Below, in pieces: positions 15,590-18,370 of a stretch of DNA of 64,000 nt. The position numbers and the translations under genes were made by a program. Under the pieces are notes generated by a model. The model was not told the DNA's origin, did not search any database, and saw only the letters and a list, made by a program, of their open reading frames with translations. Each line of letters opens with the position of its first letter. The stretch's first letter is position 1. The stretch comes from Candidatus Nitrosopumilus sp. Its GTDB lineage: Archaea > Thermoproteota > Nitrososphaeria > Nitrososphaerales > Nitrosopumilaceae. The stretch is from NCBI GenBank assembly GCA_013215285.1, contig JABSRD010000002.1, positions 62,001 to 126,000 of the forward strand, written 5' to 3'.

Positions 15590-15823
15590 ATGCACAAAGG
15601 GTTTATTTTATTAAATTGTGATTTAGGTGCAGAAGAATACATTGTAGATGAATTAAAACAAATGCAGAACATTAGAAATGCATATCTAACTTTTGGGGCA
15701 TATGATGTAATTGCAGAAATTCAAACAGAAGATCAAGTGGGATTTGAAAAAGCAATTGCAATAATTAGAAAACTCTCAAGAGTTGTAAGTACAATGACAC
15801 TGAATGTGGTTACTCCCGAATAA
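15590..15823 (+). CDS. Solo Lrp/AsnC ligand-binding (RAM) domain protein
   Basis: A 77-residue protein consisting of one RAM domain: FILLNCDLGAEEYIVDELKQM, then the GAYDVIAEIQT strand, then IAIIRKLSRVVSTMTLNVV. No DNA-binding HTH is present. Stand-alone RAM proteins bind amino acids or modulate full-length Lrp regulators by mixed oligomerisation. Start ATG 15590, 52 bases after the helicase stop, same strand. A frameshifted paralogue occurs at 26.2-26.5 kb. Confidence 0.82.
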   Translation: MHKGFILLNCDLGAEEYIVDELKQMQNIRNAYLTFGAYDVIAEIQTEDQVGFEKAIAIIRKLSRVVSTMTLNVVTPE

Positions 15824-15969
15824 TTGTTCTAAGCTAGATTGTCAACCATTCTTTTGTAAAAACTATCAAAAATTATAGAATAATCATACTAGAAGTTTAT
15901 AATCCTGAAACTATTTTCAATAAAACATATTCAATCTATGAACATACCTGATAATTTCATAAAAATTAC

Positions 15970-16260
15970 TCAAAATCCTTCAGGTGGCTTTTGAACAAAA
16001 ATATTACAAACTAGTGCATCTATTTTTTTATCTTTATATTGAACATTACATGAAATGAATTTTCCTTTTAGTGCACGTTCTAGATCTTCGGGAGTTTTTT
16101 CTTCATATTGTGGCTCTTCTGGATTATCAATTTTTGCAATAATTATTTTTTCAGTTTTACCATACTCTTCTTTATTGTCTTTTCTTGTATGGCTAACAAG
16201 TATCTCAAATGCATTGTTTGTTAGAACCCTAATAACTGGACCACCAATCCCATCTCCCAT
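15970..16260 (-). CDS. Small hypothetical protein (96 aa)
   Basis: A soluble protein starting MGDGIGGPVIRVLTNNAFEILVSHTRKD. Its beta-rich first half is followed by a charged linker (NPEEPQYEEKTPEDLERALKGK) and a beta tail with two Cys. The frame ends QKPPEGF. I recognise no family and see no signal peptide. It is divergent from the truncated hsdM gene to the right. Confidence 0.55.
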   Translation of the reverse strand: MGDGIGGPVIRVLTNNAFEILVSHTRKDNKEEYGKTEKIIIAKIDNPEEPQYEEKTPEDLERALKGKFISCNVQYKDKKIDALVCNIFVQKPPEGF

Positions 16261-16386
16261 AATTTCTTAATTTTTTTTACTCTATAATTATTTGGTGATA
16301 TTTCTAATTTTAAATTATGATGTGTTATTTTTTGTAGAATTATTATAAGAATATCTATAAGTCTAATTAAATATCATCTTTTAAAT

Positions 16387-17233
16387 TTGCCTGAAAAAGT
16401 TACTCTGGAAGCGCTAAAATCACACCTGTGGAAGGCTGCTGACATTCTTCGTGGTAGTTTGGATGCATCAGAGTATAGAGAACCTGTTATGATCATTTTA
16501 TTTCTCAAGCGACTAAATGATAGATTTGAAGAAAATATTGAGAAACTAATTGCAGAGGGAAAAACAGAGAAAGAAGCTAATCAAGATTTTAGACATGACT
16601 TTTTTGTTCCAAAGGATGCAAGATGGGATAAATTATCAACAGTACGAAATAGAGTTGGTGAAAAAATTGATGAGGTTTGTAAATTAATTGAAAAATCAAA
16701 TGAAAAACTTGAAGGAGTTCTAACTAATACAAAATACTCTGATCCTAGAAAGTACCCTGATGATAATTTAGCCAATTTAATTTCTCACTTTAATTCCCCA
16801 CGATTAAGAAATTCTGATTTGGAAAAAGAGGATATTTTTGGTGATGCATATGAGTATCTCTTAGAACAGTTTGCTGATGCGACAAAGAAGAAAGGTGGAG
16901 AATTTTTTACACCACGAGAAGTTGTAAATTTACTTGTTAATTTAGTAGACCCAAAAGAGGGAATGAGAATTTCTGATCCTACATGTGGTTCAGGTGGTAT
17001 GTTAATTATGTCACGACATCATGTAGAGATTAACAAAGGAAACCCACGTGATTTGGTTTTAGATGGCCAAGAATCAAACTATGGGAACTTGGCAATGTGT
17101 AAAATGAATATGGTATTACATGGAATGATGGAATTCATGGAATGATGGAATTCATGGAATGATGGAATTCATGGAATGATGGAATTCATGGAATGATGGA
17201 ATTCATGGAATGATGGAATTCATGGAATGATGG
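16387..17233 (+). pseudogene. hsdM: Truncated type I restriction-modification methyltransferase subunit (HsdM)
   Basis: The TTG-started frame encodes the HsdM N-terminal helical domain (LEALKSHLWKAADILRG, LKRLNDRFEENIEKL), then GEFFTPREVVNLLVNLV and SAM motif I DPTCGSGGMLI. Catalytic motif IV (NPPF/NPPY) and the rest of the ~500-residue protein are missing. The reading frame stops at 17143-17145 within a 17-bp tandem repeat directly after the conserved MNMVLHG, and nothing like HsdM follows the repeat. No hsdS or hsdR is nearby. The product could bind neither target nor partner normally, so it is a remnant. Confidence 0.88.
17120..17233 (+). repeat. 17-bp tandem repeat, 6.7 copies
   Basis: The unit ATGGAATGATGGAATTC is repeated perfectly at 17120, 17137, 17154, 17171, 17188 and 17205, with a 12-base partial copy from 17222. 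It begins inside hsdM where that gene breaks off. Because 17 is not a multiple of three, each copy changes frame, and a stop (TGA) appears in the array. The perfect identity implies recent expansion by slippage. Confidence 0.97.
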
Positions 17234-17332
17234 TTTGACCAAGACTGACATAATCACTCTCTTTGTAGGCGTCATTTGGCAGTAAAAGTGACATCATTGT
17301 ATTTTTTTTTCTGATCAGAAGGGTTTAGGTGA

Positions 17333-17506
17333 TCAAGGATATACATCGTAATTTAGACGTCTAAGATCATACACAGTAACATCAACATCATAGTCAAGAT
17401 GATCTATTTTAAACTCCAACTCTTCACAGTAAGAAGTTTTACAAGTCACACACTTATGATAACTACAATCTTTTTTTATTATAAAAAACACTTTATGAAT
17501 TGTCAT
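17333..17506 (-). CDS. Small Cys-containing hypothetical protein (57 aa)
   Basis: The ATG-started frame MTIHKVFFIIKKDCSYHKCVTCKTSYCEEL has CxxxHxCxxC plus a further Cys, compatible with a metal site. The rest is Asp/Tyr-rich (KIDHLDYDVDVTVYDLRRLNYDVYP). Its ATG overlaps the stop of the upstream open frame by four bases (ATGA), which may indicate coupling or may be chance. It sits in a decayed patch. Function unknown, coding status uncertain. Confidence 0.42.
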   Translation of the reverse strand: MTIHKVFFIIKKDCSYHKCVTCKTSYCEELEFKIDHLDYDVDVTVYDLRRLNYDVYP

Positions 17507-17993
17507 ATTATAATATCAGGGAATATTTGAATTTGGTTAAAAGGTAAAGAGTGAAAAAATAAATTTAAAAAATTAATTAAATTTACAGTAAATAAACGTA
17601 TAATGTATAGAAAATATGGTTTTTGAGTAGGACTCAGATTATTAACATCCCATTTGGTGTTTTTTCTCTTATCTTGACGTAGTTGCTCTGTGAAATAGTG
17701 TATGGTCTCCAAACTTGTGAAATCTCTAAAGGTGATTGGATATTCAGAATAATCTTTGATGACTCCAATCTTTTTGCCAATAGACATTGCCTGGTAAAAA
17801 ATATCCTTTTTTTGCTTGAGTGGGGTTTCTTTTTTTCCTATTTTCTCATAATTTGTGTTGAGGAAATCTTTAGGAGTAAGAAGTTGATTATTAGCTAAAA
17901 GAGTGAGCATTTTTTGTGTCTAGGCCTAATTGAGAATCCATAATCTTTTTGTTCATCAAACTCTGAAATGACTTGATAGGTTTTGGGTTCCAT
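17503..17993 (-). pseudogene. Frameshifted hypothetical gene, possibly integrase N-terminal region
   Basis: Two adjacent frames join into one plausible protein: MEPKTYQVISEFDEQKDYGF... from ATG 17993, then MLTLLANNQLLTPKDFLNTNY from 17910. They are separated by a frame change in a run of six A (coding strand) just before 17910; one additional A would restore the frame. The segment LSPTQKPYFLYIIRLF near the end resembles the core-binding region of tyrosine recombinases, but this is weak, and the tail becomes low-complexity. A catalytic domain is absent. It lies beside the truncated hsdM, consistent with a decayed mobile-element edge. Confidence 0.5.
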
Positions 17994-18079
17994 GATTATA
18001 CTTGATAGTTAGTATAAAAAAGCCAAGTAAAATAACCAAGAGAATAATTGTTATATGAGTAATTTAGAATTGTTTTAAA

Positions 18080-18370
18080 TTGCAAAAAATTGATTATGAA
18101 GGTACAGTTTGGGTGTTAAATTACAACAATCCAAAACCGCTATTAGATCATGCCATCTACATGTTAGAAAAGCATGGGATTAAACGTGAAGATATGACAA
18201 TTACAGAAACACCAAAAGCAACAGTAGGCTCAATAGTAGTTGAAATTTGGCCATATGAGTTAGTTATAGCAAGAGTTAGAACAACTCGTAATGATTCATT
18301 TATCAGCGGTACTGAGCTAACGATTGAATTGAAATTAGACGAAAATGGGAATTATTTTGATTATCTTTGA
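18080..18370 (+). CDS. Small hypothetical protein (96 aa)
   Basis: A TTG-started soluble protein, alpha/beta: YEGTVWVLNYNNPKPLLDHAIYMLEKHGIKREDM then beta strands SIVVEIWPYELVIARVRTT and ELTIELKLDENGNYF. No motif recognised. Its stop overlaps the TTG start of the next gene (TTGA), so the two form an operon with a membrane-anchored protein. Confidence 0.6.
   Translation: MQKIDYEGTVWVLNYNNPKPLLDHAIYMLEKHGIKREDMTITETPKATVGSIVVEIWPYELVIARVRTTRNDSFISGTELTIELKLDENGNYFDYL

Follow-up and report, generated by a model that had tools for sequence, protein, structure and literature searches.

Slippage-born minisatellites in pseudogenes consist of perfect head-to-tail copies of the local sequence, a sequence in which a short direct repeat is already built in. 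Type I restriction-modification (R-M) systems whose hsdM contains a repeat tract, for example in Haemophilus influenzae, are known to phase-vary (PMC7394358). Thaumarchaeal integrated elements, described by Krupovic et al. in 2019, insert into the 3' ends of protein-coding genes, including that of an AsnC family regulator; their attachment (att) sites can be as short as 8 bp, and they encode an integrase and carry type I R-M genes among their cargo (PMC6563490).

Here we analyze a 17-bp tandem array that lies within a broken hsdM gene of the marine, ammonia-oxidizing archaeon Candidatus Nitrosopumilus sp., in a DNA stretch of 64,000 nucleotides (hereafter the window). With the phase-variable type I R-M systems (PMC7394358), the array shares the property of being a non-triplet repeat tract inside hsdM; however, it does not open a longer reading frame at any copy number, and the locus possesses neither the C-terminal half of the gene nor an hsdS or hsdR that could be switched. 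The DNA surrounding the array resembles the thaumarchaeal integrated and cryptic integrated elements (PMC6563490) in its short att repeats, its AsnC-type target 3' end, its integrase and its type I R-M cargo, and the locus fits this class by its sequence, although it is only about 2.2 kb long and both its integrase and its hsdM are broken. Slippage-born minisatellites show the same head-to-tail arrangement of local copies as the window array, and nothing notable distinguishes the two. We consider it highly probable that the array is real, but that it is an ordinary and inert minisatellite within the remnant of a mobile element.

Table 1. Features of the locus within the window (., no strand assigned).
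Feature	Position	Strand	Characteristics
Lrp/AsnC-ligand-binding-like gene, 77 aa	15590-15823	+	PF01037, E 4e-7; integration target
Left attachment site GAATAATTGTT	15818-15828	.	11-bp direct repeat, second copy at 18042-18052; empty sites have one copy
Left arm of element	15829-15876	.	CTAAGCTAGATTGTCAA..TTTTGTAAAAACTATCA, largely common to same-site elements in G010 and G051
332-bp duplicate of core gene (96-aa ORF, 15970-16260)	15966-16297	-	96% nucleotide identity to G000:C23 copy
5' half of hsdM	16387-17136	+	PF12161, E 2e-28; PF02384 positions 2-102 of 311; 89% amino acid identity to G044 HsdM
Tandem array of 17-bp units (6 perfect, then 12 nt)	17120-17233	+	Unit 1 is probable hsdM coding sequence (..HG-MMEF)
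57-aa ORF with cysteine/histidine pairs, cargo	17333-17506	-	Open frame
Integrase N-terminal quarter, probably tyrosine type, frameshifted, catalytic domain missing	17614-17993	-	Homologous to first ~126 of 505 aa of intact G010 integrase
Right attachment site GAATAATTGTT	18042-18052	.	11-bp direct repeat with 15818-15828

The Integrated-Element Remnant and Its Relatives

The homology of the window to related genomes stops at position 15831 and resumes at position 18042. Nine relatives, among them G077, the closest relative at the element locus, possess an empty site in which the two flanks are adjacent and GAATAATTGTT is present in a single copy (with one mismatch in one of the nine); in these genomes, the Lrp/AsnC-like gene adjoins the sequence found at 18080-18370, a conserved arrangement. 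In the window, the left att site overlaps the stop codon of the 77-aa Lrp/AsnC-like gene, i.e., its 3' end, and the integrase remnant adjoins the right att copy. The locus hence combines direct-repeat att sites with an empty site in relatives, as expected of an integrated element, and has an integrase gene beside one of these att sites. The segment from about 15818 to 18052 (2.2 kb) is what remains of a mobile element that had integrated here. The preliminary description of this DNA had not recognized this main context of the array, the element remnant with its att repeats and integrase remnant.

The same site is occupied in G010 and G051 by elements that have similar arms and the same type of integrase, and all three elements can be aligned with one another in both their left and their right arms. 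The insertion in G010 is about 25 kb in size and carries an intact 505-aa integrase gene at the matching place, while that in G051 measures 2.2 kb and contains a truncated integrase. Three other ORFs that were checked in the G010 insertion (L120/L104; G010:C1, about 1107500-1133030), which sits at the same Lrp/AsnC-like gene, gave no Pfam match; the G051 insertion (L105:4653-6865) contains ORFs that, judged by eye, are UspA-like and cyclase-like. A tandem array of 15 copies of an 18-bp unit is present in G035 (L110:4520-4785) within a 5-kb insertion at a site shared with the window element.

The integrase fragment of the window has no match in Pfam, and the C-terminal part of the G010 integrase scores 21 bits (E 3e-4) against PF00589, below the curated cut-off of 27.1; judging from these sequences, the integrase is likely to belong to the tyrosine recombinase family. 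As to the other contents of the element, the C23 copy of the duplicated core gene has neighbours that match those of the gene in other species of the genus. This copy (G000:C23:88075-88362) is the counterpart of 15966-16297, and almost every other genome of the genus that possesses the gene has one close copy of it. Between 17234 and 17613, DNA matches are limited to short AT-rich stretches, and the 57-aa ORF in this interval found a single, very weak match in the 250 genomes searched.

The Truncated hsdM Gene

The open frame of hsdM extends from 16387 to a stop at 17145 and comprises HsdM_N in full and the initial third of N6_Mtase. It retains motif I (DPTCGSGG) but has lost the NFPF motif, which is positioned past the break in relatives; the part of PF02384 that remains (Table 1) falls short of the complete N6_Mtase domain with an NPPF-type catalytic motif that characterizes a functional type I HsdM. 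None of the six frames downstream of the array contains a continuation of HsdM. On this point the preliminary description was correct, and it was right, too, to suspect a deletion at the break of hsdM.

A genome-wide search for the missing catalytic half returned none besides a separate hsdM on contig C22. A continuation of the window gene elsewhere in the genome was rejected, as the matches obtained were this C22 hsdM (69% identical) and, on C1, a weak match to N6_Mtase. The C22 locus harbors the sole hsdS and hsdR of the genome, along with its sole other N6_Mtase C-terminal sequence of the HsdM kind; a partner hsdS is absent from the array locus. In this only type I R-M locus of the genome with hsdM, hsdS and hsdR (L134, around position 127437 of C22), hsdM itself lacks one base (GGGGAC versus GGGGAAC in G017) and is thereby split into two frames, the result of either a mutation or a sequencing error.

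Compared with the G044 gene, the hsdM half of the window shows 89% amino acid and 76% nucleotide identity, with a dN of 0.07 and a saturated dS; the differences are mostly synonymous, and 250 codons are traversed by no internal stop. These two properties point either to selection until recently or to a fragment that is still made. Hence, the damage to hsdM may be recent, or the fragment may still be expressed, and we count this against our best explanation. That the 252-aa N-terminal HsdM fragment is kept and expressed, for instance to act as partner or inhibitor of the type I R-M system encoded on C22, with the array merely setting its end, is nevertheless very unlikely in our judgement.

Composition and Origin of the Tandem Array

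Six perfect units of ATGGAATGATGGAATTC occupy positions 17120-17221, and a partial unit of 12 nt, ATGGAATGATGG, closes the array at 17222-17233, just as the preliminary description had counted. The chance expectation for unit matches with up to two mismatches in the window is a mean of 0.08, against the six observed, and not one of 100 shuffled sequences reached six. Other tandem arrays exist in the approximately 349 kb scanned (the window and related DNA), none of them with the ATGGAATGATGGAATTC unit. When up to three mismatches were allowed, the array was found in none of the other 249 genomes of the family (250 were searched, and the source genome alone contains it), and the viral contigs searched gave no match.

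A perfect repeat of 114 bp comes near the length of a short sequencing read, and the one-base frameshift in the C22 hsdM might reflect an error of sequencing; an assembly artefact could accordingly have produced the array or altered its copy number. This is unlikely, given that the array is located within a contig of 133 kb from an assembly that is 99% complete and is flanked by unique sequence on both sides.

The first unit (17120-17136) encodes HG-MMEF, in register with the HG-ITDF, HG-IVDF and HG-MEDF of full-length HsdM proteins. After MNMVLHG, full-length relatives continue with ITDFNVEFGDTL (G044) and IVDFNITYGDTL (G053), the second hsdM of the source genome continues with MEDFTIEHGDTL, and the window hsdM reads MMEF before it enters the second unit. 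As the acidic residue and the F of MMEF sit in conserved columns, unit 1 most likely belongs to the true coding sequence of hsdM; a rough estimate based on codon counts puts the probability of a chance match at a few in ten thousand. The homology to HsdM consequently extends through unit 1 to about 17136 instead of stopping at 17119, so that the preliminary description erred in letting the array start exactly where the homology stops, after MNMVLHG. An end of homology behind unit 1 indicates that the array was built from hsdM sequence, and the repeat appears to be an amplified piece of the gene's own DNA. The short repeat inside the unit, ATGGAAT-G-ATGGAAT, would be a natural seed for slippage, and the identity of all units to one another suggests a recent expansion.

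Plasmid iterons have a similar length and a direct orientation. The array recalls them in both respects and might therefore be a functional cis element, such as a set of iteron-like binding sites of the mobile element. We regard this as extremely unlikely: the unit is hsdM coding sequence, no copy is present at the other occupied sites or in the 249 family genomes, and single-strand folding at the array is not unusual (z 0.35 and 0.62). By these same z values, a role of the array in DNA hairpin formation or folding was rejected.

Copy Number and Phase Variation

The unit length of 17 bp is not a multiple of three, as had been pointed out before, and Haemophilus influenzae is one organism in which short repeats are known to switch hsdM (PMC7394358). 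The array could hence be imagined to turn HsdM on and off through changes in its copy number. Yet, simulated copy numbers from 1 to 12 all yielded the identical 252-aa ORF, because the unit carries a TGA in the frame by which hsdM enters the array, a stop that is met in the second unit; furthermore, neither the C-terminal half of HsdM nor hsdS or hsdR is found nearby. Phase variation was rejected for the assembled sequence on the basis of this simulation, and a phase-variable hsdM is scarcely credible; the doubt already voiced in the preliminary description can now be put more firmly. Changes in the copy number should at present be without effect on the hsdM product.

Order of Events

In the sequence of events that we envision from this one sequence, slipped-strand replication at ATGGAAT-G-ATGGAAT would have first doubled the 17-bp stretch of hsdM and later amplified it, thereby placing the TGA in frame and inactivating the gene. 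Then a deletion, or else a jump of replication during that event, would have fused the terminal partial unit to foreign DNA, with loss of the remaining hsdM and of further pieces of the element. This partial unit ends with ATGG, after which the foreign sequence begins, whereas every earlier unit continues ATGG-AATTC. Since AATTC is hsdM sequence beyond the ATGG joint, at least one 17-bp duplication should have preceded or accompanied the deletion. An expansion that came first, or simultaneously with the deletion, is thus the order that we regard as probable. No intermediate, in which a complete hsdM would contain at least two units, was found.

The reverse order, with a deletion that fused hsdM to foreign DNA first and an expansion of that junction afterwards, is what the preliminary description had favoured. 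The array does directly adjoin the hsdM remnant on one side and sequence other than hsdM on the other, and a templated insertion in the same repair event is possible. However, slippage at a simple junction would not be expected to leave AATTC between the copies, except where the foreign DNA happened to start with ATGGAATGATGG. Of that earlier proposal, the deletion is supported; a deletion that came first is doubtful, the opposite order being the likelier one. We are highly confident in the account as a whole, in which slippage and then deletion left an inert minisatellite in the remnant of an element. The array and the broken hsdM are ordinary genome decay.

Implications

A non-triplet repeat in hsdM can mimic a phase-variable switch and needs to be judged with caution; at this locus, the in-frame stop, the missing half of the gene and the mobile-element context point to decay. 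The 3' end of the Lrp/AsnC-like gene adds an integration site that has been used repeatedly in the genus, with full, remnant and empty states present among the relatives.
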